Made by a program: the position numbers and the translations under genes
Shown here: positions 53 to 25,695 of the stretch, in pieces
Layout of the letters: each line of letters begins with the position of its first letter
How positions within the stretch are numbered: position 1 is the stretch's first letter
The notes under the pieces: generated by a model
Databases searched by the model: none
The model's input: the letters and a program-made list of their open reading frames with translations, nothing else
What the model was told of the DNA's origin: nothing
From: a virus
Direction: 5' to 3' (one strand)
IMG/VR virus record: IMGVR_UViG_3300032205_000006
Coordinates: 1 to 43,560 of that record
Length of the DNA stretch: 43,560 nt

Positions 53-70
53 CAATTATGTGAATGATTG
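53..70. repeat. Palindrome copy 0 (degenerate)
   Basis: CAATTAT-GTGA-ATGATTG: the same 7-4-7 inverted repeat as the intact copies, with one mismatch in the right arm and a different loop. It lies 56 bases before the intact copy at 109-126, both upstream of the first gene, as tandem operators often do. It may be a weaker binding site or a decayed copy. Confidence 0.55.
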
Positions 71-108
71 ATATCGATATGGCAATGGTGAGTGACGTAA
101 GGTCAATC

Positions 109-126
109 CAATTATCCCAATAATTG
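109..126. promoter_or_regulatory. Palindrome copy 1, upstream of first gene
   Basis: CAATTAT-CCCA-ATAATTG, a perfect 7-bp inverted repeat around a 4-base centre, extended to 8 bp by C108/G127. It lies 58 bases before the first start codon. Other intact copies are at 1066, 1794, 3139, 6051 and 25678. The fixed arms, and not only the pairing, point to a protein binding site on DNA. A regulatory role is inferred. Confidence 0.7.
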
Positions 127-184
127 GGAGGGTTGATAAGAGAGCCGCTAACCGATAGCAACTACCAACACAAAGGATAGGGTA

Positions 185-997
185 ATGCCCGATATCACAT
201 ATGTGCCGCTTACTGCTGCACAAATCAAGGCAATGGATAAGTCGTGGGCAATTGGCGAGAAGAATGAGAGAGAATCATTCCTCCGGCAGATTGAGGATAC
301 TGCAAAGGATAAGCGTTTCTTTGCAAACATCCTTTGGACTTACTATAAGGTCCGTATTGGTGATGCAAATGCCAATATGTTTGCCACTGAATTCAGTGCA
401 ATTGCAAAGGCATTTGATTTCAAGAATGCCACCGGCGAGTCATATCGTGGTCGGTCTGCAATGGCATTGCAAGAGGATTATGTTTGCTTGCGAGGCGAAG
501 CCTTTATGAAAGAGGCTCTGGCGAATTTCAAGGCTGACCCGAAGAATAATGGCAAGGATTGCAAGAACTTGCAGAAGCTCGTTCCCTATCTCACCGCAAT
601 CATTAAGACCCATAAGCCGAATTACAATGCGGATAATGCCAACAATGGCAGCGGCGCATCGGTTTCACCGGCAGTGAAAGAGCGTAAGGAATTGCGCATT
701 GCAATTGGTAAGTTCGGAATGCATGGCGCATTTCAGGATAAGCCTGGTCGTAATGCCGGATGGAAAGCGACAACTCCCCAAACCACCGCAATTGAGAAGC
801 TCCTTTCTCAGTGTGGTTTGGATATCGCTAAGCTCCGCAATATGGATGCAAAGGATATCCGATTGATCGGAGTTATGGTGGATGAGGCAGCTAAGGCTGT
901 CGAATTGAATGGCGGCCCATTCCCAATGCCAAAGCCCACCAATGTCACCGATATCGGTGCAAAGGTGAATGCAAAGGGTAAGGCTAAGTCAGCCTAA
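185..997 (+). CDS. AT-rich first gene, unknown function
   Basis: 270 residues, not recognised. The ATG at 185 follows an AAAGGA ribosome site. The protein looks mainly alpha-helical, with many Lys, Asn and Ala, no membrane segment and no Cys-pair motif. Near residues 130-150 is a basic patch (KTHKPNYN), and the tail is Lys/Ala-rich. The gene is strikingly AT-rich: I count 22 G+C in 60 bases at 361-420 against 39 in 60 at 4741-4800. It prefers GAT, AAT, GCA and ATT, unlike all neighbours. This suggests recent gain from another source or selection on codon use. Palindrome copies sit upstream and just downstream. An abundant DNA-binding protein or regulator is possible, but that is a guess. Confidence 0.85.
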   Translation: MPDITYVPLTAAQIKAMDKSWAIGEKNERESFLRQIEDTAKDKRFFANILWTYYKVRIGDANANMFATEFSAIAKAFDFKNATGESYRGRSAMALQEDYVCLRGEAFMKEALANFKADPKNNGKDCKNLQKLVPYLTAIIKTHKPNYNADNANNGSGASVSPAVKERKELRIAIGKFGMHGAFQDKPGRNAGWKATTPQTTAIEKLLSQCGLDIAKLRNMDAKDIRLIGVMVDEAAKAVELNGGPFPMPKPTNVTDIGAKVNAKGKAKSA

Positions 998-1020
998 TTC
1001 CAAAGGGCAATAGCAATAGG

Positions 1021-1062
1021 GCCCGGCTCTCGGTGGATAACCGAAAGCCGGGCCTTTGCTTT
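1021..1062 (+). terminator. Rho-independent terminator of first gene
   Basis: A 13-bp stem (1021-1033 with 1041-1053, one mismatch), 7-base loop TGGATAA, then CTTTGCTTT. It starts 23 bases after the stop of the first gene and separates it from the next unit. Confidence 0.85.
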
Positions 1063-1065
1063 ACC

Positions 1066-1083
1066 CAATTATCCGAATAATTG
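1066..1083. promoter_or_regulatory. Palindrome copy 2
   Basis: CAATTAT-CCGA-ATAATTG, perfect 7-bp arms. It lies just after the terminator of the first gene and about 200 bases before the next start codon, so it sits where a promoter or operator for the next unit would be. Confidence 0.7.
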
Positions 1084-1281
1084 ACTGGTCCGATGCATCC
1101 GATGCCCACGAACCTCACCACCTCGCAGCGATGCGCCATCCCATCCACGACACACGCGCCATCACAGCCACACAACGCTGCCGCGTGCGCCACCAAACCC
1201 ATACATCGACCGAGCCAATGCACGGTCACCGTCCGCTCCGGCAAGTCCGCCGGGGTATCGACCAACACACAGGAGAATGAA
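1084..1281 (+). other. C/A-rich leader without a convincing gene
   Basis: About 200 bases between palindrome copy 2 and the next start codon. The plus strand is rich in C and A (CCAC, CACC, ACAC runs) and poor in G. The frame stays open and joins the next gene, but the encoded Thr/Pro/His-rich stretch looks non-native and the ribosome site is only at 1271-1276. I read it as a weakly structured untranslated leader. I see no tRNA or known riboswitch in it. Confidence 0.45.
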
Positions 1282-1785
1282 ATGCCCACAGGACGCCCAC
1301 TCGGCATCGCCACCATCAAGCAACACCTCAACGCTGTTGCATCCGACCTACCTGCCGGTACCGACCGGGAGATGATCACCACCATCGCCACCCATCTCGG
1401 CCAGAAGAACTTCATGCGCCCCGACACGCTCCACGACGTCGTCAAGGACCTCGACGCCTTCGTCGGCCGTCAGCGTGAGTTCCTTGGCGGGGACACCGTC
1501 GCCTACACCAACCGGTGCATCGACGCCCTTGCCCGAATGGAAGCCAAGTTCGCTGACGTCATGCGCAAGCCGACCAAGAAGGCACCGACCAAGAAGATGA
1601 TGGGCACCTACGCTCCGAAGGAGACCAAGCCTGTCGTCGCCGCCAGGGTCTCCATCACCTCGACCGAGGCGATCATCGGTGCCATCGGAGTGCTCCTCGA
1701 AGAGGTGGCCGACAACAGCTGGAACGACAACACGTTCGACACGCTGCGTCACCTGATCGACGTGCTCGACAACCTCGTCAGCTGA
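1282..1785 (+). CDS. Unknown early protein, Lys-rich centre
   Basis: 167 residues from ATG 1282. This start has AGGAGA at 1271-1276; the open frame runs further upstream through a leader of non-coding character. Residues 1-90 look helical. A basic linker with two KKxPTKK-like units lies near residues 95-110, followed by an acidic C-terminal helix. The shape of two helical ends around a basic tether suggests nucleic-acid or partner binding, but I do not recognise the family. It is alone between palindrome copies 2 and 3. Confidence 0.8.
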   Translation: MPTGRPLGIATIKQHLNAVASDLPAGTDREMITTIATHLGQKNFMRPDTLHDVVKDLDAFVGRQREFLGGDTVAYTNRCIDALARMEAKFADVMRKPTKKAPTKKMMGTYAPKETKPVVAARVSITSTEAIIGAIGVLLEEVADNSWNDNTFDTLRHLIDVLDNLVS

Positions 1786-1793
1786 GCGCACCT

Positions 1794-1811
1794 CAATTAT
1801 CCAGATAATTG
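1794..1811. promoter_or_regulatory. Palindrome copy 3
   Basis: CAATTAT-CCAG-ATAATTG, perfect arms. It begins 9 bases after a stop codon and ends 10 bases before a UUCG-loop hairpin. The same palindrome-then-hairpin order occurs at 3139-3196 and 6051-6108. Confidence 0.7.
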
Positions 1812-1821
1812 GATCGGCAAC

Positions 1822-1862
1822 AGCCCCCACGTATCGGCTTCGGTCGGTGCGTGGGGGCTTTG
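1822..1862 (+). terminator. UUCG-tetraloop terminator
   Basis: The arms 1822-1838 and 1843-1859 pair over 17 positions, three of them G-U, around a C(UUCG)G tetraloop. TTGTCGTT follows, a poor but present T-rich tail. It probably ends transcription of the 1282-1785 gene. Confidence 0.75.
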
Positions 1863-1875
1863 TCGTTCCCTCACC

Positions 1876-1910
1876 ACGCTCGCTCAGCGACTGCGTTGCT
1901 GAGCGAGCGT
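1876..1910 (+). other. Second perfect hairpin, 13 bp
   Basis: The arms 1876-1888 and 1898-1910 are perfectly complementary, with a 9-base loop. No T tract follows. It sits between the terminator at 1822 and the ribosome site of the lysozyme-like gene, so it may be a backup stop, an mRNA 5' stabiliser or an RNase site. Confidence 0.55.
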
Positions 1911-1945
1911 ACCACCCTTGTCAACCTGCCTGAAAGGCTTCCCTG

Positions 1946-2401
1946 ATGCACATCATCCTGTCCCTGCTCCTCCTCTTCGCCCCATCCACGCTCGACCTGC
2001 CACCAGAGATCGACTCCCCAGCCACGGCAGCCGTCCCCGCCGATCGTGTCGACCCACCGACTACGCCGGAGACGACAGCCCTCTCGTTCGCCTCCGACTG
2101 CGACGAGATGCACTGGTACCGCGCAGCAGCAGGTCTCCCCGCCCGCTTCGATGCCATCGGCTGGCGTGAGTCGAACTGCCGCAACGAGGAGAGCGTCCAC
2201 ACCTCGTGTTGTTGGGGTTGGTGGCAGCTGTCTGTGGCTCTCCACCTACGTGATCGCCGCCTGGTCGACCGCTACCACTCCTGTGGCGTCTACAGCCGCT
2301 CAGACGTGGACTCAGACACCTCTGCGGACAAGCGACGACAAGCCTGTGCCACCAAGGCACTGTTCGACGTCGTCGGCTACTCGGCCTGGTCGACCTCATG
2401 A
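1946..2401 (+). CDS. Secreted lysozyme/transglycosylase-like protein
   Basis: 151 residues. An N-terminal signal peptide (hydrophobic residues 3-12, little positive charge) and a Pro/Thr/Ala linker precede a Cys-rich domain from about residue 50. WRESNC places a likely catalytic Glu at residue 75, followed by CCWGWWQL (88-95), the pattern of lytic transglycosylase and goose-lysozyme folds. About seven Cys suggest disulfides outside the cytoplasm. Similar small secreted proteins occur, from memory, in high-GC actinobacteria. It is probably a cell-wall hydrolase, but it is well separated from the main lysis genes at 9.1 kb, so it may act in superinfection control or wall remodelling. It overlaps the next gene by ATGA. 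Confidence 0.7.
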   Translation: MHIILSLLLLFAPSTLDLPPEIDSPATAAVPADRVDPPTTPETTALSFASDCDEMHWYRAAAGLPARFDAIGWRESNCRNEESVHTSCCWGWWQLSVALHLRDRRLVDRYHSCGVYSRSDVDSDTSADKRRQACATKALFDVVGYSAWSTS

Positions 2402-2571
2402 GCGACCTGTCCCGCTTCACCATCGTCGCCCTCGATGGCGACGTGTGGCTGTGGTGCCTGGACTGCGAGAGCATCGTCCAGACCGTCGAAGGCCGTCTGC
2501 TGCCTGACATCGCCCAGTGGGCTGATGCTCACAACGCAACCAAGCACCCGGAGCGGCGTCATGACTCCTGA
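2398..2571 (+). CDS. Small Cys/His protein, 57 aa
   Basis: ATG 2398 overlaps the previous stop as ATGA. The product has CLDC near residues 20-23 and His residues near 47 and 51, so a CCHH zinc site is possible. No family recognised. The reading frame overlaps the next gene by 11 bases, in keeping with a tight operon. Confidence 0.65.
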   Translation: MSDLSRFTIVALDGDVWLWCLDCESIVQTVEGRLLPDIAQWADAHNATKHPERRHDS

Positions 2572-2767
2572 CGACAGGTTGGCGGCGATTCTGTGGCTCA
2601 TCGCCGCAGCCGTGGCCACCACCACGCTCATGCTGCTCGTCGACCTGGTCTTCGACGTGCTCGAACAAGTACCAGTGGTCACCAAGGACCCGCTCACCGG
2701 ACAGTTGTACATCCCACGCTCGAACCTGTACGTGGGCCAACGCACCAGGAGGCACCATGACATGTGA
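2561..2767 (+). CDS. Small single-pass membrane protein
   Basis: 68 residues from ATG 2561. A strong hydrophobic segment lies at about residues 8-30 (LAAILWLIAAAVATTT and on), followed by a soluble tail. No cleavage motif is clear. It is part of the 1946-3130 cluster whose members are secreted, membrane or metal-binding, so a cell-envelope role is plausible. Not a recognised holin. Confidence 0.65.
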   Translation: MTPDDRLAAILWLIAAAVATTTLMLLVDLVFDVLEQVPVVTKDPLTGQLYIPRSNLYVGQRTRRHHDM

Positions 2768-2999
2768 CGCTCGAACCCGTCCACTCATCCCGATCAACGA
2801 CATCGAGGTGCGTTGTGAGCTTGACGACGACCACGCTGGACTACACCAAGGCACGATCCGCGACTACGCCTACCCAGGCTCGGCAACGGCCGTCAACTGG
2901 GAGGAGCAGGATCGGCGCACCTACCACGGCGAGTGGCTCGGTCTGTGTCCCGACAACTGCACGTTGCCGATCGGTCACCGTGGAAGCCACGCACCATGA
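2757..2999 (+). CDS. Duplicated Cys-His motif protein
   Basis: 80 residues from ATG 2757, after CCAGGAGGC. It carries the same metal-site-like motif twice: CELDDDHAGLH near the N-terminus and CTLPIGHRGSH near the C-terminus, that is C-x-L-x3-H-x-G-x-H. Motifs of this kind are frequent in small actinobacterial and actinophage proteins and probably bind zinc. Function unknown. Confidence 0.75.
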   Translation: MTCDARTRPLIPINDIEVRCELDDDHAGLHQGTIRDYAYPGSATAVNWEEQDRRTYHGEWLGLCPDNCTLPIGHRGSHAP

Positions 3000-3130
3000 C
3001 CGAGCCGCCCTCACCCGGCCATGACCTGCAGCGCAACAACGACGACCGAGTCGGTGCTGGCGCTGCCACCTTCGGAGGATGGCTGATGATCATCCTCTTC
3101 ATCGCGATGCTGCTGAAAGCCTGCGGCTGA
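2996..3130 (+). CDS. 44-aa protein with C-terminal membrane helix
   Basis: ATG 2996 overlaps the previous stop as ATGA. A charged, soluble N-terminal half is followed by one C-terminal hydrophobic helix (WLMIILFIAMLL, about residues 30-41). Tail-anchored topology. Too small to assign. It is the last gene before palindrome copy 4. Confidence 0.6.
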   Translation: MTEPPSPGHDLQRNNDDRVGAGAATFGGWLMIILFIAMLLKACG

Positions 3131-3138
3131 CCGAAGCT

Positions 3139-3156
3139 CAATTATCCGCATAATTG
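3139..3156. promoter_or_regulatory. Palindrome copy 4
   Basis: CAATTAT-CCGC-ATAATTG, extended to 9-bp arms by TC/GA. It starts 9 bases after a stop codon, and a UUCG-loop terminator follows 12 bases later. Confidence 0.7.
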
Positions 3157-3168
3157 AGTTGTTCAGCG

Positions 3169-3200
3169 AGCCCCCTCACCTTCGGGTGGGGGGGCTTGAC
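3169..3200 (+). terminator. UUCG-tetraloop terminator
   Basis: The arms 3169-3180 and 3185-3196 pair over 12 positions, with one G-U pair, around TTCG at 3181-3184. The T tail is weak (TTGAC). It ends the 1946-3130 cluster. Confidence 0.75.
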
Positions 3201-3223
3201 CCATTTATTCAGGAGGTTATTCC

Positions 3224-5185: not shown

Positions 5186-5665
5186 ATGGATGACGGATTC
5201 ATGGAAGGACGAGCCGACCGCGTGATCCGACGGCTGCTGGACGACGGGGACGTCGGCCAGGTGCTGGAGATCCTGAAGGCGCTGATCGGCAACGAAGGCA
5301 ACGACATCTCGATCGCCTTCCGCGCCTGCCTCATCGCTCAAGGCTTCGAGGCTGACGCCCTGCAGGCCAACCAGGTGATGCTGCTGTTCCACAAGAACGG
5401 CTTCCTGCTGCAGATCGACCCGCGCGACGACGACGAGTACTTCGAGAACAAGAGTCCCGAACTCTCGGCAGCGTTCGACAACGCACTGGTCTACGTCATG
5501 CGTGGTGCCAACATCGATGCCTACGTCAATGAGGACGGACGCATCAGCGCTCGGGGGCCGATCCTGCCCACCACCACCGAAGCAGTCGAGCAGCTTGTCG
5601 GTCAGTTCAAGGACGAGATCGATCGTGAGTTCCCCGACACGCCTCGGCAAGGGAAGTGGTGGTGA
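5186..5665 (+). CDS. Unknown protein downstream of the ATPase
   Basis: 159 residues from ATG 5186, with AAGGAG at 5174-5179. An N-terminal helical half (LDDGDVGQVLEILKALI) is followed by a mixed segment containing FHKNGFLLQIDP. It ends in RQGKWW. No catalytic motif recognised. It shares the CAACCAAC leader with other early genes and is coupled to the next gene by TGATG. It may work with the ATPase, by position only. Confidence 0.8.
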   Translation: MDDGFMEGRADRVIRRLLDDGDVGQVLEILKALIGNEGNDISIAFRACLIAQGFEADALQANQVMLLFHKNGFLLQIDPRDDDEYFENKSPELSAAFDNALVYVMRGANIDAYVNEDGRISARGPILPTTTEAVEQLVGQFKDEIDREFPDTPRQGKWW

Positions 5666-6048
5666 TGGGCCTCGATCAGTGGATCGAACGTGTCGTCACC
5701 GACGACGAGCACAAGGAAGTGGCCTACTTCCGCAAGGTCAACTTCCTGCACAAGTGGGTGGAGGACCACCTCAACGAAGGTCGCGAGACCAACTGCGAGG
5801 CGATCCCCTTCCACCTCGAAGCGATGGCCGGGCTGGCACAGACGTGCTTGCAGGTGCTCGACCATCCCGAACTGGGGCCGGAGTTGCTGCCCACGATGGG
5901 CAGGTTCTTCTTCGGCAACACCGACTACGACGAGTACTACTTCGGTGACGTCGGGGACGTGCACAACGCACTGGTGGGCATCCTCGCCTACGAGGCGGCT
6001 CGTCATCCGGCAACACCTGGGCAGTACATGTACGTGTCCTCGTGGTGA
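5665..6048 (+). CDS. MGLD-type conserved phage protein
   Basis: 127 residues from ATG 5665, which shares its A with the preceding stop (TGATG). It begins MGLDQWIER and carries FRKVNFLHKWVEDH near residues 25-38 and FFFGNTDYDEYYF near 88-100. I recognise the pattern MGLD ... Y/F-R-K-x-N ... H-x-W ... FFFGxTxYDE of a small conserved phage family without known function. The start could also be GTG at 5656, but conserved members begin at MGLD. Acidic and soluble. Confidence 0.8.
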   Translation: MGLDQWIERVVTDDEHKEVAYFRKVNFLHKWVEDHLNEGRETNCEAIPFHLEAMAGLAQTCLQVLDHPELGPELLPTMGRFFFGNTDYDEYYFGDVGDVHNALVGILAYEAARHPATPGQYMYVSSW

Positions 6049-6050: not shown

Positions 6051-6068
6051 CAATTATCCAAATAATTG
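6051..6068. promoter_or_regulatory. Palindrome copy 5
   Basis: CAATTAT-CCAA-ATAATTG, perfect arms. It starts 3 bases after a stop codon and abuts a long UUCG-loop hairpin. Confidence 0.7.
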
Positions 6069-6140: not shown

Positions 6141-6629
6141 ATGGCTGTACGCCGACAGAAATCAGAGAATCACCTGCTCGCCGTCCGACCAGACGGCCAC
6201 TACAAGGGTGTGCCCTGCACCTATGAAGGCATCAAAGAAGGGCTCGACGACGCCACGTTCGACTTCGTTCGCACCGATGTCGTCGGCATGTACGTCGACG
6301 ACGAGTCGCTGCTGAAGGAGATGCCGTTCAACGTCCCCGCCTCGATCTTCATGGCTCGGGCGCTGTTCGGTCCCGTTGTTCTGTGTGCAGCGGAGCCCGA
6401 CGGGGAGGGCAACACCCTTCCGGCCTCGAAGTCGGCCGTCTCAGGGCTGACAGCCCTGTGTCGTCTCTGGCAACGGGTGGTAGCCGACGCCGTGAGGCTC
6501 GGTCAGGACGTCATTCCCCACGCCAACGAGTTCACGATTCCGCCGCCGCAGGTGTTCATGATGGACGACGAGGAGTTCGAGGCATACCTCACCACCGGTC
6601 AGCTTCCCGACCGGGAGCCAGACGCATGA
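6141..6629 (+). CDS. Unknown early protein
   Basis: 162 residues from ATG 6141, after GAAAGAGAG in a CAACCAAC leader. A basic N-terminal strip (residues 2-8) is followed by a mixed alpha/beta-looking body and an acidic C-terminus with MMDDEEFEAYL. The body contains a small-residue hydrophobic helix, but no clear membrane segment. No recognised family. It is translationally coupled (ATGA at 6626) to the zinc-finger gene, so the two probably act together. Confidence 0.8.
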   Translation: MAVRRQKSENHLLAVRPDGHYKGVPCTYEGIKEGLDDATFDFVRTDVVGMYVDDESLLKEMPFNVPASIFMARALFGPVVLCAAEPDGEGNTLPASKSAVSGLTALCRLWQRVVADAVRLGQDVIPHANEFTIPPPQVFMMDDEEFEAYLTTGQLPDREPDA

Positions 6630-7645
6630 GCCGCATCAGCGACTTTCCCGACGAGTGGATCATGGTCGATCAGCTGAAGCCAGTGGATCTGTCGAACATC
6701 TCCGACAAGGGGATGCAGGGCGTCGTCCTGCTGGCGGTAGCTCTCGGCTGGAACCTGGTGCAGCGACGCGGTGCTCCCGCCCAGCTGCGCTCCCGGAACG
6801 GGATCACCCGCAACATCCCGACTGACACCGGCGTACGTCAGTCGGTGTTCTGGTCGATGCTGGCCAACATCCTCGGTCACTCCGAGGGACGCCTGCCGAC
6901 GCCAGAGCTACTCGAACTCATCGTCAAGTCGACGGGGATGTCGAAGGCTCACGCCCAGGTGCTCATCTCCAAGGTGGGCATCCTGGCCAGCGCCAACCCG
7001 AAGACGCTGGAGATCGAGGAGCCCGAGGAGGAGCCCGAGGTCGAGTGGAAGACAGCACCCGAGCCAATCATTTCGATCATTGAGGAGGCCCGAGCATCGG
7101 TTGCTCTCGATGGTGAGACACAGTCGGTCGGATTCGTCCCGACAGAGCGAGTCGAGCCGACACTCAATCAGGCCGGAGAAGGGGAGCAGTACATCTCCGA
7201 GATCATGGACACCATCATCCGCCAGCTGGTGGCTGACGGAGATGACCAGATCACGTACCGCTGCAAGGTGTGTGCCCTGGAGTTCGAGACCAAGCGTGGC
7301 GTGGGCGCGCACTGGCAGGTGCACGTCAAGAAGGGCGAAGCAGAAGCGACCGCAGGCAACAAGCGGACGATCGTCAACAAGATTGAGGACTACGTCCCGA
7401 CCGAGGTACACGCGCCACGCAAGGACATGGCCCAGGAGCTACGCCGTCTCCGCCGTGTCGTGCAGGACGTGCAGCGCGCAGTCGGCCAGGAGGCCATCAA
7501 GGATGCGGAGCGGCGGGTCATGGTGGCCGAACGCAAGGCCGAGGCGATGCAGAAGGAGCGGGACGACGCAATCGCCCGAGCCGAGCGCCTCGCCTCGGAC
7601 CTACGTTCCCTGCGAGATCTGATCGGAGGCATCTCCGATGAGTAA
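6626..7645 (+). CDS. C2H2 zinc-finger protein with coiled coil
   Basis: 339 residues from ATG 6626 (ATGA overlap). Residues 25-110 contain VVLLAVALGWNLVQRRG and a later IPTDTGVRQSVF stretch, which resembles a small RNA- or DNA-binding alpha/beta module seen in some actinophage proteins (HicA-like by look only). An acidic linker (about 130-145) precedes a canonical C2H2 finger: Cys213, Cys216, His229, His233 (C-x2-C-x12-H-x3-H). The last 90 residues are heptad-rich and charged, a coiled coil for dimer formation. A phage nucleic-acid binding regulator is likely. C2H2 fingers are unusual in phages. Confidence 0.8.
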   Translation: MSRISDFPDEWIMVDQLKPVDLSNISDKGMQGVVLLAVALGWNLVQRRGAPAQLRSRNGITRNIPTDTGVRQSVFWSMLANILGHSEGRLPTPELLELIVKSTGMSKAHAQVLISKVGILASANPKTLEIEEPEEEPEVEWKTAPEPIISIIEEARASVALDGETQSVGFVPTERVEPTLNQAGEGEQYISEIMDTIIRQLVADGDDQITYRCKVCALEFETKRGVGAHWQVHVKKGEAEATAGNKRTIVNKIEDYVPTEVHAPRKDMAQELRRLRRVVQDVQRAVGQEAIKDAERRVMVAERKAEAMQKERDDAIARAERLASDLRSLRDLIGGISDE

Positions 7646-10566: not shown

Positions 10567-13500
10567 CTATGACGCCTGCTCGCGAGTCATCGCTCCTTGG
10601 CGCTTGTACTCGTCCTGCAAAGCGAAGTACCGGCGCATCGCCTCGTTCTCCTGCTGCTTGGGCGACAGCGTGCGGTATGGGATGCCGGTGAAGCGGGCCC
10701 ACGATTCAGCGAGGCGCTTGGGATCGGAGATGCCGCCGACCGCACCGGGAGCGAGGCGGTTGACGCGGTCGTCGATCGGGTTGATCGAGCGCATGAGGTT
10801 CAACCAGTTGTCGGAGACCTGCCCGGCCTCGTTGGTCTGGCCGGGCACCACCGTGGCAATGGCCTTCTCGATCGCACCCCACGGACCACTCACCTTGCTG
10901 AAGTCGTCGGGTCCGAACTGCCGACCGGTGAAGCTGTCCTTGCCGTAGGCGAAGTCGAGCGGAGCGGAGAAGCCGGGGTTGACCGACGACATGATCGCCA
11001 ACGGGTTCTTCCCGGAGAGGGTGTCAGCCACGTTGGTGATGTCGGACTGCACCCGGTTGAAGCCGAAGTCCGGCTGGTAGTACGCAGGTTGGCCGAGGAA
11101 GTCGAAGGGCAGGCGCCAGGTGCCGAGCCCCTTCCAGTAGGCCGGGGTGTTCTCTGCGTCGGGCTGCGAGAAGTTGCGCTGGGCGTGGCCGTAGAGGGAG
11201 TACAGCCTCGGGTTGGTGAACATCTCCTGGTACTGCAGCGGCAGGTTGCGGGACATGAACGTCCAGAACGGGATCATCTGCTTGGCCGACTCGTCCAGCT
11301 GGGACACCTCGGCATAGTTGAAGTGCACCCGGCCGATGCGATCGACGGCACCGGCGACGGTCTCGCCCCGCTCGACCGAGTGCATCGCCATCGCCAGGCG
11401 CAGCGCACCCTCGATCTTCTCGCCACCGCGCTGAGCCCCACGCGTCAGCGGGTTGTTCATCAGCTTGTTGTAGACGCGGTACTGCGACTTGCCTGCGACG
11501 CCAGCCTCGGCCACCCGACCACCGGCACCGGAAGCGAACGTGGCGGAGAAGGCTTCCTGGATCGGACGTGGCTGCTTGGCCAGCCACTCCTCCCCACCAC
11601 GCTCCCACTTCCTCCACAGACCGACGGCCTTGGCCTGCATCTCGACCGGCACACCATCGGCGGTGTTCATGAAGATCCCGCCCATCGCGTTGCGGGTCAT
11701 GAAGCCAGGGCTCAGGGTGGCGTAGGTCTTGAACAGGTTCGTGAACATCTTGAATCCACGACCGACGATCCCCGGCGCCTTCTGCATGTTGTACATGTTC
11801 TGCATGGCGGCAGCCAGGCGGGAGTCGATGATGACATCGCCCTTCTCCAGCAGCCCCTTGTGGATGGCATCCCAGCTGTCGCTGAGCACGGCACGGCTGA
11901 CGTCGTCGAGGTTCTTGTTCGCCGCCTGACCGCTCAGGAACTGGACCTGATTCATCAGCTGCTTCGGACCTTCGAGTGCCTGCAGCGCAGCGAGGTGCGT
12001 GTGCAGCAGGGACTCGGCCGCGTTGAGCGCGTTGTTGTCCAGGTTCGGGTTGGCCTTGGCGATGGCCAGCAACTCTTCGGTGGCGTCGATCAGGTCGTCG
12101 TTGTTCGGCCGACGAGGCACGGCCATCAACCGCTCGCGCAGCTTGATTACCTCGCTGCGCTTGCGCAGCAGGGACTCGCGCTCGGTCAGATCGGTCTTCA
12201 AGTTCTCGAAGACGTGATGCTTCTCCGACAGGGCACCAACCTCGGCGTCACGCTTCGCACCCCACCACTTGTCGATCCGGGCCTTGACCTTCTCGCCCCG
12301 GAAGGGAGCCTCCGCTTCGAGCTTCTGCTCGGCAGCACGTGCCTCCTCGAACGGCCTGACCACCTTGTCGTGCAGGTCGCTGCCCGGCGTGATCGTCCCC
12401 GACACCGGAGAGATCTGCGACGACAGGTACTGCACCGCCTCGGCCTCGGTGCGCGGCGACGGCACCCCGGCCAGCTGTCCGGTCTCGGCGGAGACGGCTT
12501 TGGTCTCGAACGCGGCGGGCTGCGGTGGCGTGTTGATCCGTTCGACGAAGCGCTCCTCTTCGGGGCCGAACCCACCGAGCGGCTCCATCCACCGAGGGCT
12601 GACCGGCTTGGCCTCTTCGACGATGGCACGGGAACGATCGAATGCCTCACGCTCGGGACGCGTGGCTGCCCGGACGTTGGCCTTGAACCAGTCGTCGGCG
12701 GAGATGATCTCCTTCGCTCCGGGCTGGGCTGCTCTCTTCGCTGCGGCCTGCTCGGCTGCGCTCATCTCTTGCCGCTGCAGTCCGCTGGCCATCCCGATGT
12801 AGTTGCCCGGCTCGGCCGGGGGCAGCAGGCGGCGCTCGGCCGAGGTGGTGGCGAGCGACCGAGCCGCATCGTCGCGGGCGTACTCGCCTGCCTCACGCAG
12901 GGTTCGGAACTCGCGGACCGGGTCCGTGTCGCCGGGACGCTTGAGCTTCCACTGCTTCGTCGTCGGGTCCTTGGTGATGGTCCACCGCCGGACGTCCGCA
13001 GTGCCGGGCGCCGGGGGCATCTCGACCGCGTAGTCCCCGGCGGTGTACTTGATGAGCTTCCCGCCCTCGACGACGGGCTTGGTCACGCCCTCACCGATGT
13101 CGTCGGGACCGATGACACGGTTCGGGGCGACGTCACTCAGGGCCACACGCTCACGTGCCGCTTCGAGGGCAGCCTTGGTGGCCTCGGGGTCAGCGATCCT
13201 CGGGCCCAGCTGCAGCTTCTCCCTGCGGTCCTGGATCACCCGCATCCGCCGAGTGAACTCCTCGTCGTTCAACCGACCGGAGAAGCGCTCCTCCAGATCC
13301 TGGAAGTCGTTCGTTGAGATGACATCGATCTGCGCCCGCTTCGCCCGGTACTCGGCCTTGGTGTACATCCCGGCCTTGTTGTTCGCGGTCAGTTCTTCGA
13401 TGGCGTCGGAGCGCAGTTCAGTGAGGCGCCTCTTCTCCGCCTGGTACGCAGCCGTGGACATGTTGCCCTGCTCATGCCACTTGATCAGCCGGGCTTCCTC

Positions 13501-16500
13501 TTCCTCCAGGCGCCGAGCCTCTGCCGCCTTCCGCGGGGAGTGCGGCGGAGTGAAGCTCGCCTCCTTGGCCTCCAACGCCTGGCGTGCACGATCGACCGGA
13601 GCCTGCAGCTGCGACGGCCACACCTGACTGCCGACGTCGGGGCCGGAGCGAACGATTGACTCGCGCTGTCCGGCCCGAGTGTCACGAGCAGCCTTCGCCG
13701 CATCGAGCGCAGCCCGCTCCTCCTTCGTTGCATCCTCCAGGTCGACCCTGTAGCGCGCCTGTTCCTTCTCCCAGTTGGCTGCCTGCTCGTAGGGATGCAG
13801 GTTGCCTCGGGGGCCGAACCGTTCTTCGAGCACGCGCACACGGGCCCGAGCGGTCTGCCATTCGAGGTACTTCGTGTACTCCGGGTTGATCGTTGATGGC
13901 GTCAGGTTCGGACGCTGCACACCGTTGACGTTCATCCACTGCGGGACGTTCGGGTTGTCGACGAACTTGTCGGGCGGTTGGGTCGGACCGTCGTAGTTGT
14001 CGATGATCGCCTGCTGCTTGGCCAGTTCTTCCTTGGCCTCGCGCCACGTCCCCTTCTGATGGAGCACGTCCTTGATCTCGACCGAGTTGGGATCGAGCCA
14101 GATGGTGACCGGATGAAGCTTGTCGCCCATCCGCACCCCGCCGGTGTGGGTCATCGCCACGTAGCCGTCGTCACGCAGCTTCTGGTTGAGTTCCATGAGC
14201 ATCTCGTTGGCGTGGTCCCGATCGATGGCCTGATCACTGACCAGGCTGCGCAGCATCCCCATGAACGACGTGATGGCTTCCTCGCCCGTCGTCTCCCCGC
14301 CCAGGCCATGCTCCACGCTGCGGACGAAGGGACTGAGGTGGTCGTTCAGTTCGTCGTTGACGTTGAGCGGTTCGATCTGTCGCCGGTAGATGTCGAGCAG
14401 GTGCTCACGCAGGCCGTAGTCGATCTTCTTGTCGAGGTCGAGCTTCGGACCTTGCGGCCCCTCCATCCGATACACCTCGTTCGTCGGAGTGAAGGTGTCG
14501 GCCCGCCCCTTCTCCCGGCTGTACCTGACCCCCACCTCCTCATCGCCGGTGGTGTACACCCCAGCACCGAGGAGTTGTTCGATGGGATCGTTGCCCCCGG
14601 CATCCTGGAACTTGCCGACTCGGTTCGTCGTGCCGTGGAAATACTGCGGTGGGTCGACCGCCTTGACGTGCTCGGTCATGGCATGGTCGGAGGCGGCGAC
14701 GAACGAGTCGTACGTCTCGACGACGTTGCCCTCGGGATCGATCACCTTCCACCGTGGGGTCACGCGCTTCTCGAACCGGCCGAGCCTCCGACCGGTGGGC
14801 TTGTTGAGGCGTGCCGACAGTTCGTCGGCCATCAACCCCTTGGCGTGCTCCTCCGCCTCCGAGTGCGTGCGGAAGGGACGGGACGGCTTCTTCCTGCCCT
14901 TCTTCGGCGTGACCGTCCACTCGCCCTCGGCGTTCTGAGCGATGGTGTACAGGTCCTCGGGGTCCTTCACCTGGTAGTTGAGCGGCTTGCTCGGCGTGGT
15001 TTTGCCGGGAATGGGCTTCGCTTCCTGCGTGTACCTCGGTCCGGTGGTCCGCCCCGTTGGCACGGCCTTCGTCTCCGGCGTGGTGTGCTCGACCTTCCAC
15101 CCCGTCGACGTCGTGTACTTGTTGCGTCCCTGCGCATCGGTGCCGCTACGAACCAGCCCGCCCTCGTAGTCCTTGGCCGGGTCCCAGCCGACGCGACGCA
15201 GGGCATCGCGAGCCATCTCCACCTCGTCGATCAGCTTCTGATCTGACTTACGGATCGCACCCGACTTGGTGAACAGTCGACCGTCTTCACGTGACGACTG
15301 CAGCGCACGGATCGCCTCGGTGTAGCGCTGCTGCATCCGCTCGTACTCGGGATGCGACTTCAACCCGGTGGTCTCGTAGGCCCGATCGATCACATCAGGC
15401 TGCGACGGAGACGGCTTCGGGATCGTCGCCTCCTTGGCGGCGAGGGCTGCCTCCTTCTCCGGCACGTCGCCGTTGATCCACGCCCGGCGCTCTTCGATCT
15501 CCGCCTTCAGCCGGACACCCACGTCTTCGACGTGCGCCTCCAACCTCTCCCGCTCGCCCTTCAAGATGCGCAGCTTCTCGGCCAGGTTGGCGTCGACCCG
15601 CTTGTTCGCCCGTGTGATCTTCCCGTTCCACACCCGCTTCCTGGAGGACATCTCCTTCTCCAGATCAGCGATGACGTTGTCGATCTTGGCCAGCGACCGA
15701 GACACCTCGTTGGCGTTGTCGCTGGTGATCTTGCCGACACCGAAGCCACGAACCTTGTCCTTGACGGCCTCGACGATCTTGCCGAGTTCCTTGATCCGCG
15801 GGTTGTCCTCCTTGGCCGACAGGCGCAGACCTTCGGCCCAGTTCTTGCGCAGGTCTTCGAGGACGTCGCGCGACTCGGCCTGCACCGTCTGGATGTCCTG
15901 GCGGGCAGCGGTCTGCCACTGGTGACCGGCACCCTGCACGTCCTGGCGCAGCTGCTCGGTCAGCTTCTTGTCCTTCTCGGCCCTGAAGTACCCGCTCGAC
16001 GGCACCGGCTCGGCAGCAGCGACATCCTCCAGGCCGACGCCGCGGTTGTATCCCTGGCTCGTCACGTCGGTGACGCGCCGGGCGTAGGGCTGTTGCTTCA
16101 GCGCCCGGTTCATCGTCTCGTACTCGTCCCACAGCATCCCGTCGAGGACCTTGGCGTAGGGCGACGCCGTTCCCGCCAGCTGCGCTCGGGCATGGCGTGC
16201 CCCGGCGTCTCGGGCCAGCGAGTCGAGGTACGTCTCTGCGATGACGTTCAGGTCCTTCGAGTAGAAGTCACCCTTCCAGTCGGGGAACGCCTGGCGCAGG
16301 GCGGCGTTCTTGTCATCGATGGTGTTGCCCTTCAGCACCACCTTCTTCCCGGCGAAGTCGAACTCCTGCTCGGTCTTGCCCGGCGGCACGGAGAACACAC
16401 GCTTCTTGTCGAGGAAGTGGCTGGCCTCCAGCAGGTCGTCCTTGACGATCCCCGACTGGTGCATGAACGCCTGGGCGGCAGGGTCCTTCGTCTTGGCCAG

Positions 16501-18111
16501 GTTGCGCCGCCAGTTCGAGTCGAGCACGCCGGGGACGTAGGACTCTCGGTCGATGCTCGACATCAACTCCTTGCCGGTGAGCCGCTCGTGCACCTGCTGG
16601 ATGTTCGAGAAGATCTTGTTGACCCAGTTCATGCCGGGCTGGGTCTCGGCCTCGGTGATTGCCTGGCGTGTGGCCTCGGGCCCGGCCTGCTTCGCCTCAC
16701 GCAGCGCCTGCTTGACGAAGGTGGCGCCTCGCGCCTTCATCGGTCCCTCACCGATGGGCAGTTGGTTGCGCAGGAAGATCTCGTTGAGTGCGAGTTCCTT
16801 CTGCTCGGTCGTCGAGTCCGCGTTGCGCAGTACCTGGAACGCACCCTCGGCACCCTTCAACGCACGGGCGTTGCGCAGCTTGTACGCCGACGACGTCTCG
16901 TCGAGCGCCCCAGGGATCTTGTCGAGCAGGTCACTGAAGGCAGCCCGGCGGACACCCTTGACGTCCTTCATCACCTGACGGATCGGCTCGGTGAAGGGGA
17001 TCTCCCCGATGCCTTTCAGCGCCCAGTTGCCGGTCTTCACGCCGAGATCGGCGCGGGCCTCGGGGCTCATCGCCTCGAAGCCCTGCTTCACACCCTTGGT
17101 GATCTCAGCTGCGTGCTTCTGCCACAGCGTCGGGTTCTCCGTGGCCCACTCGGTGGCCAGGGTGGCCCGCGCCTTGCGGTTATGCGGGATGGGGATCTCC
17201 CGCTGCTCGCGGATCACCGTCGAGGGTGCCAGGCGCTCTGCTTCGGCGGCTTCGGCTGCCGCCTTGCGGGCACCGACCAGCCCCTCGTCGACGCCTGTCA
17301 TTGAGGCCAGCGCCTCGCGCTCGGCCAGATGCCTGGCCGCTGCCTCGGACGCCTCGCGGGCGGCGGTGATGACCTCGGGTGTCACGCCTGCCACGTGCGC
17401 TGCGTCGCCAGCGAGGATCGCCGGACGAGAGACGACGCCGCCACCTTCGAGCAGCATCAGTGGGTCGTTGAGCATGTCCCCGCCGAAGCCCATCAACCGG
17501 TCGCCCCACTGCGAGCCGGTCGACGCCTGGATCGAACCGTGGCCGAAGTCGGAGCGCGGGGCGATGCGTTCCAACACGCCGCGCTTGTTCGCCCGCGCCT
17601 TGTCCGTGTCGACACCGAACGGGGAGAGGGGGACCAGTGAGGCGATCTCGTTGAGGGCGTCGACGTACTCACCCTTGCCGAACGGATGCTCCGCCCACTC
17701 GGCCACGCCACGCGGCAGGTGCGCGGACAGTTCCTGCTTGCCCAGGGCGATCGCCTTGCCCGGCACTGACAGCACCGACAGCGGAGTGGTGACCAGTTGG
17801 GTGACCGGGTTGTCGAGGGTGTTGACGAGCGCCTTCTTGTACCAGGGCATCTTGTTGTAGGCGTCGTTGCGGGCCTTCTCCTCGGCCTTCTTCATCGCCT
17901 GTTCGGCGGTCTCCTGCGTCTTCTTCGCTGTCGCCTGCTGGACGTACGGTTCGAGCGCACTCCATCGACCGGCAAGGGATGGCGTCGCCCGGCGACTGGC
18001 CTGTACCTGCTGCGGTGAGGGGCGAACGGGCGGCGGAGCGGGGCGCCCCGTGAACCCTGGGGGCAGCGCCCGTGCGGGCGAGTAGATCTGGACCTGCCCC
18101 GGCGTTGCCAT
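10567..18111 (-). CDS. Giant internal virion/ejection protein with ART-like segment
   Basis: 2514 residues, by far the largest gene. Pro-rich N-terminus, long helical and coiled-coil stretches, and an end typical of large polyvalent phage proteins. In a podovirus without a tape measure such a protein is normally carried in the capsid and ejected with the DNA. Residues about 1155-1345 resemble an ADP-ribosyltransferase fold: YFHGT (His1159), GAGVYTT (Tyr1186), NEVYRME (1211-1217), then a late GYVAMTH ... WLDPNSVEI strand pair. The catalytic Glu that usually precedes the last strand is not obvious, so the segment may be inactive. No lysozyme motif stood out. It overlaps the upstream stop by one base. 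Internal virion role: strong from context. ART: tentative. Confidence 0.85.
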   Translation of the reverse strand: MATPGQVQIYSPARALPPGFTGRPAPPPVRPSPQQVQASRRATPSLAGRWSALEPYVQQATAKKTQETAEQAMKKAEEKARNDAYNKMPWYKKALVNTLDNPVTQLVTTPLSVLSVPGKAIALGKQELSAHLPRGVAEWAEHPFGKGEYVDALNEIASLVPLSPFGVDTDKARANKRGVLERIAPRSDFGHGSIQASTGSQWGDRLMGFGGDMLNDPLMLLEGGGVVSRPAILAGDAAHVAGVTPEVITAAREASEAAARHLAEREALASMTGVDEGLVGARKAAAEAAEAERLAPSTVIREQREIPIPHNRKARATLATEWATENPTLWQKHAAEITKGVKQGFEAMSPEARADLGVKTGNWALKGIGEIPFTEPIRQVMKDVKGVRRAAFSDLLDKIPGALDETSSAYKLRNARALKGAEGAFQVLRNADSTTEQKELALNEIFLRNQLPIGEGPMKARGATFVKQALREAKQAGPEATRQAITEAETQPGMNWVNKIFSNIQQVHERLTGKELMSSIDRESYVPGVLDSNWRRNLAKTKDPAAQAFMHQSGIVKDDLLEASHFLDKKRVFSVPPGKTEQEFDFAGKKVVLKGNTIDDKNAALRQAFPDWKGDFYSKDLNVIAETYLDSLARDAGARHARAQLAGTASPYAKVLDGMLWDEYETMNRALKQQPYARRVTDVTSQGYNRGVGLEDVAAAEPVPSSGYFRAEKDKKLTEQLRQDVQGAGHQWQTAARQDIQTVQAESRDVLEDLRKNWAEGLRLSAKEDNPRIKELGKIVEAVKDKVRGFGVGKITSDNANEVSRSLAKIDNVIADLEKEMSSRKRVWNGKITRANKRVDANLAEKLRILKGERERLEAHVEDVGVRLKAEIEERRAWINGDVPEKEAALAAKEATIPKPSPSQPDVIDRAYETTGLKSHPEYERMQQRYTEAIRALQSSREDGRLFTKSGAIRKSDQKLIDEVEMARDALRRVGWDPAKDYEGGLVRSGTDAQGRNKYTTSTGWKVEHTTPETKAVPTGRTTGPRYTQEAKPIPGKTTPSKPLNYQVKDPEDLYTIAQNAEGEWTVTPKKGRKKPSRPFRTHSEAEEHAKGLMADELSARLNKPTGRRLGRFEKRVTPRWKVIDPEGNVVETYDSFVAASDHAMTEHVKAVDPPQYFHGTTNRVGKFQDAGGNDPIEQLLGAGVYTTGDEEVGVRYSREKGRADTFTPTNEVYRMEGPQGPKLDLDKKIDYGLREHLLDIYRRQIEPLNVNDELNDHLSPFVRSVEHGLGGETTGEEAITSFMGMLRSLVSDQAIDRDHANEMLMELNQKLRDDGYVAMTHTGGVRMGDKLHPVTIWLDPNSVEIKDVLHQKGTWREAKEELAKQQAIIDNYDGPTQPPDKFVDNPNVPQWMNVNGVQRPNLTPSTINPEYTKYLEWQTARARVRVLEERFGPRGNLHPYEQAANWEKEQARYRVDLEDATKEERAALDAAKAARDTRAGQRESIVRSGPDVGSQVWPSQLQAPVDRARQALEAKEASFTPPHSPRKAAEARRLEEEEARLIKWHEQGNMSTAAYQAEKRRLTELRSDAIEELTANNKAGMYTKAEYRAKRAQIDVISTNDFQDLEERFSGRLNDEEFTRRMRVIQDRREKLQLGPRIADPEATKAALEAARERVALSDVAPNRVIGPDDIGEGVTKPVVEGGKLIKYTAGDYAVEMPPAPGTADVRRWTITKDPTTKQWKLKRPGDTDPVREFRTLREAGEYARDDAARSLATTSAERRLLPPAEPGNYIGMASGLQRQEMSAAEQAAAKRAAQPGAKEIISADDWFKANVRAATRPEREAFDRSRAIVEEAKPVSPRWMEPLGGFGPEEERFVERINTPPQPAAFETKAVSAETGQLAGVPSPRTEAEAVQYLSSQISPVSGTITPGSDLHDKVVRPFEEARAAEQKLEAEAPFRGEKVKARIDKWWGAKRDAEVGALSEKHHVFENLKTDLTERESLLRKRSEVIKLRERLMAVPRRPNNDDLIDATEELLAIAKANPNLDNNALNAAESLLHTHLAALQALEGPKQLMNQVQFLSGQAANKNLDDVSRAVLSDSWDAIHKGLLEKGDVIIDSRLAAAMQNMYNMQKAPGIVGRGFKMFTNLFKTYATLSPGFMTRNAMGGIFMNTADGVPVEMQAKAVGLWRKWERGGEEWLAKQPRPIQEAFSATFASGAGGRVAEAGVAGKSQYRVYNKLMNNPLTRGAQRGGEKIEGALRLAMAMHSVERGETVAGAVDRIGRVHFNYAEVSQLDESAKQMIPFWTFMSRNLPLQYQEMFTNPRLYSLYGHAQRNFSQPDAENTPAYWKGLGTWRLPFDFLGQPAYYQPDFGFNRVQSDITNVADTLSGKNPLAIMSSVNPGFSAPLDFAYGKDSFTGRQFGPDDFSKVSGPWGAIEKAIATVVPGQTNEAGQVSDNWLNLMRSINPIDDRVNRLAPGAVGGISDPKRLAESWARFTGIPYRTLSPKQQENEAMRRYFALQDEYKRQGAMTREQAS

Positions 18112-21518: not shown

Positions 21519-21519
21519 A

Positions 21520-22437: not shown

Positions 22438-22439
22438 AG

Positions 22440-22928: not shown

Positions 22929-24661
22929 GTGCGCTCCCGTCGACCGATCGGCTTGATCACCACAGCATCGACCCCCCACTTCTGCCGCGGCGTCGCCGGG
23001 GACTTGCTGAACCGCATCTGCACCGAGGCGGCGACACCCATCGACCCGCCGCGGATCATCACCGACCCCTCGTGCTCGGTGCCCCAGTCGGCACCACGTC
23101 CACCCGGATCGGCCTCGCCACCCTCGGTCCAATCGAAGCCGTTGTTGGCCGTGTCATCGAACCCCGTCGCCGTCCAGTACGACTGGCCGAGCGAGGGGAT
23201 GGTGATCGTCCGTGACCGGCGGGCGAAGGTCTCGTCGTAGTCGTGGAACGTCTCGACGATGACGTTGGTGCTGCGCGGCACACGCGGGCAGATCAACCGT
23301 GGCCGCTTCCACGACTTCTTCGTGTCCGGCTGATTGAGGTTCATCCACGGCGTGCGGTAGAAGCTGTCGAAGTCCTCGTGGTCGACCGTCTTGAGCAGGT
23401 CGTCGTAGCCCTCCTCGATCGCATCGAGGGTGATGGCAATAGCCATCGAACCCGACCACATCATCCCCAGCGGGAAGCTGGCATCGACATCCGAACCGTC
23501 GATCACCGGGGCCACTGCGCCGTACGTCGACAGGTACATCGTCCACGCGCCCTTGCCGACATCAGGGTCGGCCACGAACAACGTCTGCGGCCACAGCGTC
23601 GACTGTCCGGAGGTGCGCGTCAGCAGTTCGCGTGACGTCGTCGTGCCGACCGGCAGGCGTTCGAGCACGGTCTGCTTGACCCACGGCACGCTGACCCACA
23701 GCCGTCGACCGGCCCACGAGACGAACACGTTGTCGAACGCGGTGATCTCCTCGAACGCTGGCTGCAGCGCCTCGGACAGATATGTCGGAGCCTCGCCGGT
23801 GTACCCGTAGACACCGCCGATGTCGTTGGCCGAGTAGAAGTACACCGCCGTCTCCGACGCGGTGATCGCCGTCGGCGTCGGCGCGCCGATCCAGGCGGAG
23901 ACCTTGATCAACTGCCACGACGTGTCGTCGTAGCCGTACAGCGCCCACAGGCTGTTGTTCTTGAAGATCAACAGGTGATCGCGGAACGACAGCATCCCGG
24001 TGATCTTCCCGCCGCCGATCTCGATGTCCAAGAAGTCGTCGGTGCGCCAGGCGTCGGGCCGGTTGGGGTGCGACCAGCGGATGCGGTTGGGGTGGTTGGC
24101 CCCGCTCTCGAAGGTGTTGCCGACGAACATGTATCCGGCGTGCCCACGGATGTGCTGGGCCGCAGGCATGACGTTGGCCACCGGGGCATCGACTTCGGAG
24201 AACGGCGTCGTCGTCAACTGTGTCATCGACAGGTTGGCCTCGAAGCGCACCGGGGCGTTGGTGTAGCCCTGGACCACGTAGAACTGGTCGCCCCACACGG
24301 CGAAGTCGGCAAGGTGCGGGTCGGCGTTGCACGATCCGGTGAGCACCGCGGTGAACACCCTGCTCTGGTCGGAGCGGTACAGGTTGTGGTTGTACGTGAC
24401 GTAGATGACCTGCCCGCCGGTACGCACGTGGGAGAAGGCGTTGCGCGGCGTGAAGTCGACTGTCGGGCTGGAGACGTCGACGATGTCGGAGACATTCCAC
24501 CGCTTCCATCCCCGCCGGGTGACGAACCCGCCGCGTGGATCGACGTCGACGTTGAGCAGGTCCGGGGACTCGCTCGGTTCCAGCTGGAACTGCGAGCGTC
24601 GCAGGTTGATGCCACCGGTGAAGGTGGTCAGCGACGCGGGCTGGAGACGGTTGGCGCTCAT
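22925..24661 (-). CDS. Large tail protein, nozzle/stabilisation-like
   Basis: 578 residues; ATG 24661 overlaps the connector stop as ATGA. Beta-rich with repeated short strands (FRDHLLIFKNNSLWALYGYD, FYSANDIGGVYGYTG), which look like propeller blades. N-terminus FTGGINLRRSQFQLEPSESPDLLN resembles the opening of podovirus tail proteins (P22 gp10 or tubular protein B type). Position after the connector supports a role in closing the head and building the short tail. Family assignment is by pattern and context. Confidence 0.7.
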   Translation of the reverse strand: MSANRLQPASLTTFTGGINLRRSQFQLEPSESPDLLNVDVDPRGGFVTRRGWKRWNVSDIVDVSSPTVDFTPRNAFSHVRTGGQVIYVTYNHNLYRSDQSRVFTAVLTGSCNADPHLADFAVWGDQFYVVQGYTNAPVRFEANLSMTQLTTTPFSEVDAPVANVMPAAQHIRGHAGYMFVGNTFESGANHPNRIRWSHPNRPDAWRTDDFLDIEIGGGKITGMLSFRDHLLIFKNNSLWALYGYDDTSWQLIKVSAWIGAPTPTAITASETAVYFYSANDIGGVYGYTGEAPTYLSEALQPAFEEITAFDNVFVSWAGRRLWVSVPWVKQTVLERLPVGTTTSRELLTRTSGQSTLWPQTLFVADPDVGKGAWTMYLSTYGAVAPVIDGSDVDASFPLGMMWSGSMAIAITLDAIEEGYDDLLKTVDHEDFDSFYRTPWMNLNQPDTKKSWKRPRLICPRVPRSTNVIVETFHDYDETFARRSRTITIPSLGQSYWTATGFDDTANNGFDWTEGGEADPGGRGADWGTEHEGSVMIRGGSMGVAASVQMRFSKSPATPRQKWGVDAVVIKPIGRRERT

Positions 24662-25335
24662 GGGCCCGGCGGGATCACCACGAAGGTGTTCATGCCGCCA
24701 GGCACGGCGCCACCGTGCATGACGAGCGGCTTGTTGCCGACCGGCTGCATGATCGTGCGCAGCTGCTGAGTCAGGTCACGTTGCCAGCGGACCGTGTACA
24801 CGCCCTCCATCACCTCGTCCTCTTGCTGAGCGTGGACGAGGGCCATCGCGAAGTAGCACAGGGTCACGTGCAGCCGTGGGTCGAGGTCGGGGATGGCCGA
24901 GGCGCCGTTGTCCCACACCGGCTGGCGGTAGCCACGCAGCAACAGTTGGACGTCGGCGTCGTCGGACACGCGTGGCCACAAGAACATCTGCCCGCCCCAC
25001 AGCGAGTAGTACAACGGCGTCGTGCCTCCCGAGGTGGTCGTGCCGAACGTGTTCTCGGCGTTCTCGTGGACGACCGACACCAGCTTGTAGCCGCGATCAA
25101 CGTCGACCACCGACAAGATGCCGGGGACGTTGACATCCGCGGGCAGGGCGATGGCAAGCGTCCCCGGCACCTTGGCGATGGTCCACGTGGTCTCGTTGCG
25201 CGGCCACTCGTTGGAGAAGGCCATCGTCCGGTCGAACGCCTCCTGCAGGTAGACGTTCAACAACCGGTCGGGCAGGTCCGTCTCGTCGAGTTCGAGATGG
25301 TCGCGGACGTAGGTTCTCAGTCCTGCAACGTCGAT
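24658..25335 (-). CDS. Head-tail connector (adaptor), probable ATC start
   Basis: About 225 residues. After the first usual start codon in this frame (TTG 25263) the protein would lack its N-terminal helix, but the frame stays open upstream and encodes VAGLRTYVRDHL and DETDLPDRLLN, the typical first helices of the phage adaptor family. No ATG, GTG or TTG exists there. GGAGGAGG at 25343-25350 stands 7 bases before ATC 25335, so ATC is the likely start; CTG 25320 is the other option. The body contains a strand pair and DPRLHVTLCYFAMAL. It overlaps the upstream gene's end. Confidence 0.75.
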   Translation of the reverse strand: MDVAGLRTYVRDHLELDETDLPDRLLNVYLQEAFDRTMAFSNEWPRNETTWTIAKVPGTLAIALPADVNVPGILSVVDVDRGYKLVSVVHENAENTFGTTTSGGTTPLYYSLWGGQMFLWPRVSDDADVQLLLRGYRQPVWDNGASAIPDLDPRLHVTLCYFAMALVHAQQEDEVMEGVYTVRWQRDLTQQLRTIMQPVGNKPLVMHGGAVPGGMNTFVVIPPGP

Positions 25336-25655
25336 GACGCCACCTCCTCCTTCGCCCAGGCGTCATACAGGCCCAGCTGTCGAGCGTGGAACACGCAGTA
25401 GCCGAGATCCTGGATGGCGAACGCCCGGCACTGACCGCCCTTGCCTTTGCACGGCTTCTTGCCGGGCTTCAGCGCGAGCTTCGGGTCCTTGTACGGCGCC
25501 GTCGACCACAGCCCTGCCTGCTTGACGTTCTCGCCGGGGCTCTCCGGTCGGCCGGTCGCCTGCACCGGCTCGCCGCGCAGGGCGTACTGCAGACCCACGT
25601 TGGTGCCATTGGCCAGCGCAGGCTTGATGTGCGAGAAGTCATTGGTGTGGGACAC
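25317..25655 (-). CDS. Small Cys-rich virion-region protein
   Basis: 112 residues from ATG 25655. The C-terminal half has CKGKGGQC and GYCVFHARQL, a CCCH set that could bind zinc. The N-terminal half is polar. First gene after the capsid gene, 23 bases before palindrome copy 6. Possible capsid decoration or head completion protein by position, not by sequence. Confidence 0.7.
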   Translation of the reverse strand: MSHTNDFSHIKPALANGTNVGLQYALRGEPVQATGRPESPGENVKQAGLWSTAPYKDPKLALKPGKKPCKGKGGQCRAFAIQDLGYCVFHARQLGLYDAWAKEEVASSTLQD

Positions 25656-25677
25656 GGCGCCTCCAGAAGCGGGGTCC

Positions 25678-25695
25678 CAATTATCCGAATAATTG
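25678..25695. promoter_or_regulatory. Palindrome copy 6, inside the minus-strand array
   Basis: CAATTAT-CCGA-ATAATTG read on the plus strand, the same orientation as the plus-arm copies although this region is transcribed leftwards. GC bases flank it, so 25671-25702 can pair as a 14-position stem with one G-U (plus strand) or C-A (minus strand) position. It lies between the capsid gene stop (25716) and the next start (25655). Could limit read-through after the capsid gene. Confidence 0.7.

Follow-up and report, generated by a model that had tools for sequence, protein, structure and literature searches.

Phage-specific recurrent palindromes as putative dispersed operators of a linked regulator in uncultured phages

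The window, an IMG/VR virus record of 43,560 bp, contains a short palindrome repeated in its early arm and again after the capsid gene, raising the question of what kind of element this is and which protein might recognise it. The six exact copies of CAATTATCCNNATAATTG put forward in the original prediction (109, 1066, 1794, 3139, 6051 and 25678) and its degenerate copy at 53 were all recovered, where dinucleotide shuffles give an expectation of about 0.01 matches at up to three mismatches. An eighth copy, missed earlier, is degenerate with two mismatches; the exact copies lie outside genes as had been claimed, but this one is located within a coding sequence. The features of the window to which the analysis refers are as follows.

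53–70, no strand assigned: degenerate palindrome CAATTATGTGAATGATTG with one arm mismatch, upstream of the promoter-like motif of gene 1
81–86, plus strand: −10-like motif GGCAAT followed by GGTG, putative promoter element
109–126, no strand assigned: putative operator copy 1, CAATTATCCCAATAATTG, in the gene 1 leader
185–997, plus strand: gene 1, 270 amino acids, proposed cognate DNA-binding regulator (based on composition and covariation)
1066–1083, no strand assigned: putative operator copy 2, CAATTATCCGAATAATTG, 3′ of gene 1 and its terminator-like hairpin
1794–1811, no strand assigned: putative operator copy 3, CAATTATCCAGATAATTG, 9 nt past the stop of gene 1282–1785, followed by a terminator hairpin
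3139–3156, no strand assigned: putative operator copy 4, CAATTATCCGCATAATTG, 9 nt past a stop and ahead of both gene 3224 and the AAA gene
6051–6068, no strand assigned: putative operator copy 5, CAATTATCCAAATAATTG, 3 nt past the stop of 5665–6048
7065–7082, no strand assigned: degenerate copy inside gene 6626–7645 (zinc-finger-like protein)
25678–25695, no strand assigned: putative operator copy 6, CAATTATCCGAATAATTG, 20 nt past the stop of the major capsid protein (MCP) gene, within a longer GC-rich inverted repeat

The half-site centres in the window are 11 bp apart, approximately one helical turn. Within a phage the arms are invariant and the centres variable; a mismatch-tolerant scan agrees, and in the wider palindrome list described below this invariance is partly built in because the list was obtained by searching for exact recurrent arms. 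Fixed arms with a free centre would fit a dimer contacting two half-sites. IMG/VR also holds contigs, besides the near relative G001, that have a single CAATTATCCNNATAATTG copy.

The near relative, G001 (IMGVR_UViG_3300044699_000097, 45,166 bp), has five exact copies syntenic with those at 1066, 1794, 3139, 6051 and 25678, all with unchanged arms, and its equivalent of the in-gene copy at 7065 has one arm mismatch. Read in the direction of the window, G001 starts inside the equivalent of copy 109. The first 25 kb of the window had no nucleotide match among the GenBank phages (50,697 records), and the wider group, which is uncultured, was gathered via the capsid and terminase genes, with the more distant relatives found via terminase. 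At least 16 relatives besides G000 and G001 have a recurrent palindrome of their own, approximately 14–20 bp long and present in 3–14 copies at matching places. Those listed below are joined by terminase-found relatives with further palindromes of their own (G034, G035, G037, G039, G043, G045, G046, G047, G048 and G054).

G006: CTGGCGACACGTGTCGCCAG-type, 12 copies
G012: CGCTGCACGTGCAGCG, 13 copies
G016: AGCTACACGTGTAGCT-type, 8 copies
G011: TCAGTCCC-centre-GGGACTGA, 5 copies
G019: TCCGGAAWTTCCGGA, 7 copies
G025: CTAGTGCnnnnGCACTAG-type, 4 copies
G020: ACTGGAWWTCCAGT, 3 copies

In nearly all shuffled controls recurrent palindromes reached a maximum of two copies, and among unrelated segments 4 of 108 reached three or more, two of these being low-complexity A-rich runs. 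Contigs with no such family include G023 and G027 among others, many of them fragments. G046 (locus L433/L434, AT-rich) has about 19 copies of GTTTCTnnnAGAAAC spread over the contig, 10 exact and nine with one mismatch, many of which are apparently in genes, unlike in the other relatives. In G054 (locus L451, 8198–9993) the half-sites GTTTCAC/GTGAAAC are similar to those of bacterial parS, with a centre 2 bp longer.

The positions of the copies recur across the group. Sites near gene 1 lie 17–104 nt upstream of it and also shortly downstream, and capsid-linked sites lie 20–60 nt past the MCP gene, where each relative uses its own palindrome (e.g. CTACTACACGTGTAGTAG in a related group, at the same spot directly after the capsid gene). 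The divergent gap between the genes for the terminase small subunit (TerS) and a ribbon-helix-helix (RHH) protein holds a copy in G006, G011, G012 and G016, and other recurring sites are in early operons, around the AAA gene and within the zinc-finger-like gene. A −10-like NNNNATGGTG/T-type motif (ATGGTG/ATGGTT) precedes the first palindrome by approximately 17–39 nt in G000, G006, G011, G012, G019 and G020; a palindrome 3′ of such a motif is placed as an operator or a roadblock in the leader would be.

Copies located in leaders or directly past stop codons could alternatively be inverted repeats that act in the mRNA as terminators or as processing or stability signals, and the copy after the MCP gene does continue as a stable GC stem of −23.5 kcal/mol, and several copies precede terminator hairpins. 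An RNA-level function is nevertheless improbable, because the arms and not the loops are constrained in sequence and because folding is weak in four of the six copies (−3.5 to −6.8 kcal/mol), which also have no T-run. Identical arms with a varying loop are the opposite of what is seen in RNA hairpins recognised by proteins, and neither the copies inside genes nor the covariation with one linked gene, described below, fits such a role. Intrinsic terminators were rejected as an explanation since a GC stem is confined to the MCP copy.

Copies inside the gene homologous to 6626–7645 were found in G001, G006, G012, G016 and G019. As the phage-specific palindrome of these relatives lies in the coding sequence, the protein accommodates the site. 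The 6626–7645 product is itself conserved; it contains a C2H2-like motif (YRCKVCALEFETKRGVGAHWQVHV) and, at its C terminus, a stretch resembling a coiled coil. The replication module at 37298–41094 (HNH, SSB-like, exonuclease, RuvC-like and RHH proteins) is co-directional with TerS in the window and divergent in G006 and G012; owing to this inversion, the window has no divergent TerS/RHH gap, which is where G006 and G012 carry a palindrome.

The gene flanked by the first palindromes is compositionally alien. Gene 1 has a GC content of 47% and a GC3 of 50%, compared with a GC3 of about 86% in its neighbours, and the AT-rich palindrome sites are likewise alien in composition. No match to gene 1 was found in Pfam, PHROG or the GenBank phages, a PDB profile search gave chance matches only, and these Pfam, PHROG and PDB profile searches revealed no recognisable DNA-binding domain; an HTH-like stretch (TIRxxV) was read by eye only. 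G001 provided the sole match in IMG/VR. The palindrome-flanked genes of the other phages encode proteins of 135 to about 330 amino acids, with no family match where tested; gene 1 of G048 had no match in the GenBank phages, and hhalign comparisons between gene 1 groups from different sub-groups gave no significant similarity. AlphaFold models of gene 1 from the window and from the G048 family (pLDDT of 43 and 53, respectively) are unreliable. The system points to a family of phage DNA-binding proteins that evolves fast and has escaped recognition. G001, G012, G035 and G045, like the window at its start, have a contig boundary within gene 1 or its first palindrome or just before it. These boundaries are either physical genome termini or places where the assembly broke because strains vary at this hypervariable gene.

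The palindrome sequence tracks the identity of gene 1. Where the gene 1 proteins are 88–100% identical the palindromes are the same, at 60% one base is changed per half-site, and at 38% the palindromes are unrelated. The window and G001 exemplify the first case (88%, identical arms). A graded series is seen in the G048 family, where proteins that are 95–100% identical go with TTGGAACGnnCGTTCCAA (four cases), 60% identity with TTGGAAAGnnCTTTCCAA and 38% with TGATAGGnnCCTATCA. A further case is provided by G019 and G020, which are 99.6% identical over 28.4 kb and differ in a segment of about 1.2 kb containing gene 1. Their gene 1 proteins are homologous and divergent (E ~1e-5), and the palindromes flanking the gene are TCCGGAAWTTCCGGA in G019 and ACTGGAWWTCCAGT in G020. 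One site near the cassette differs inside flanks that are about 98% identical, while the distant G020 sites at 239 and 20703 are still of the G019 type. G020 looks like a regulator swap caught before full conversion of its sites, although it may instead be a chimeric metagenome assembly; a search for donor phages with the G020 gene 1 type found G020 alone. Gene 1 and its neighbouring sites thus appear to be exchanged as one cassette between close relatives. Covariation of the sites with a single linked gene, both graded and by cassette swap, is the pattern of a dispersed-operator regulon.

That copies flank gene 1, which moves as a cassette, would also be expected if the palindromes were selfish or recombination sites, i.e. 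cassette borders for a recombinase or endonuclease with gene 1 as cargo. The conserved HNH protein with a resolvase-like HTH encoded at 37298–37957 would be a candidate enzyme. This reading is highly unlikely: most copies flank no cassette, the graded covariation follows gene 1 itself, and the HNH protein is conserved (92% in G001 and about 41–50% in relatives whose palindromes are entirely different). The gene for this endonuclease lies in the replication module of most relatives, unlike a sporadic homing gene.

The original prediction named three candidate binders, the first gene product, the RHH protein and TerS. The first is the best supported; the other two lie next to copies in some relatives, but the sole natural swap did not involve either of them. 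It had also been proposed that the direction of the central CC follows the chromosome. CC is on the plus strand in all six window copies, but the G001 orthologue of the copy at 25678 reads TCGC on that strand, and the centres of G001 and the window differ at 1066 as well (GA against AG). In other relatives, too, the central bases vary with no fixed orientation. The proposal depends on one copy and fails in G001, and is therefore not upheld beyond the rightward early-arm copies. For the broader suggestion of a DNA-level element, an operator is strongly supported, because the arms are invariant and the centre variable within a phage, the palindrome follows a single linked gene in sequence, and the sites recur at corresponding places in the informative relatives. 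A replication or packaging polarity mark and a recombination site are not supported, because the orientation of the centre is inconsistent and the palindrome is phage-specific while the head genes are well conserved. Packaging polarity was among the explanations rejected.

Dispersed palindromes could also be centromere-like partition sites, with gene 1 encoding a ParB-like adaptor (as in N15) that segregates a plasmid-prophage. Several centres are CACGTG, as in parS, and the diversity of the sites would then reflect incompatibility, which would likewise drive specificity switching. The CCNN, G011 and G019 centres are, however, unlike parS, and the sites cluster at leaders and transcript ends, including after the MCP gene. 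ParABS was rejected as neither a ParB-type binder (PF02195) nor a ParA ATPase (PF13614) was found in a set of 25 records in which the controls matched, although many may be fragments. A partition function is accordingly very unlikely.

Returning to the operator reading, it is fairly likely that gene 1 encodes a sequence-specific, probably dimeric DNA-binding protein, that the palindromes are its dispersed operators, and that its specificity switches through homotypic exclusion. The protein probably acts as a repressor, as suggested by the site positions and the autoregulatory layout. Gene 1 would be autoregulated through the site in its own leader. The other sites lie in or between early-arm transcription units, past the capsid gene and, in four relatives, in the leader region of the late operon, and through them the regulator would repress initiation and/or block elongation genome-wide. 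In a cell containing the regulator of one phage, a second phage that enters with identical sites would be silenced too. Such cross-silencing would select for new specificities, so that gene 1 would be swapped as a cassette, with conversion of the dispersed sites to the new sequence to follow. Homotypic exclusion would most simply account for the switching, by analogy with Cluster A immunity (PMC6550527). The apparent cassette exchange suggests competition between related viruses through a change of their molecular 'password'. No tyrosine or serine integrase (PF00589, PF00239) was found in the same 25 records, many possibly fragments, and a set of 85k GTDB genomes contained no close prophage. 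A more tentative and rather doubtful extension is that in these apparently non-lysogenic phages a hypervariable regulator of unknown fold and about 5–14 palindromes form a homotypic superinfection exclusion system of lytic growth, which would evolve through wholesale exchange of the regulator and subsequent conversion of all sites.

The proposed arrangement resembles several known systems. In phage P1 one repressor, C1, acts at dispersed operators, and in the Streptomyces actinophage phiC31 the conserved inverted repeats (CIRs) are intergenic and near promoters. The window likewise has dispersed, putative operators for one phage repressor, but homology to the repressors of P1 and phiC31 was not detected, the comparison being through PHROGs only. 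The stoperators of Cluster A mycobacteriophages (L5, Bxb1) are many repressor sites dispersed in promoters and short intergenic spaces; the repressor of each (sub)cluster recognises its own site sequence, and immune specificity evolves and switches (PMC6550527, PMC9283540). The window shares with these its dispersed and mostly intergenic sites (six exact and two degenerate; 3–14 in relatives). Stoperators, however, are asymmetric 13-mers that a monomer binds and that point in the direction of transcription (PMC6550527, PMC9283540), whereas the present sites are palindromes of 14–20 bp with inconsistent orientation (in G001 and other relatives). In addition, the site sets here change to wholly unrelated sequences, integrase and ParAB were not found in the 25 records, and PHROG, Pfam and GenBank-phage searches with gene 1 revealed no homology to L5 gp71. 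The system would work like stoperators or P1- or phiC31-type operators, yet it is not a member of the Cluster A system. The SAS/ESAS repeats of Cluster K mycobacteriophages are, like the present elements, short, repeated, mostly intergenic and at syntenic genes, and SAS are asymmetric, 13 bp long and typically 3–7 bp from start codons (PMC3203893). This class was rejected since the present sites are palindromic, often past stops and not tied to start codons.

Joint changes of specificity in a putative regulator and its dispersed operators are recorded in nature with unusual clarity in this group: within one set of phages there are states of full conversion, of partial conversion (G020) and of gradual drift (TTGGAACG to TTGGAAAG). 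A gene flanked by the recurrent palindrome of its own genome is a simple sequence test for regulators beyond the reach of homology and, if the switching is driven by immunity, contigs could be used to sort uncultured phages into exclusion groups. Elsewhere in the window, a giant gene on the minus strand (10567–18111) encodes 2,514 amino acids, and the relatives align to it in parts only.
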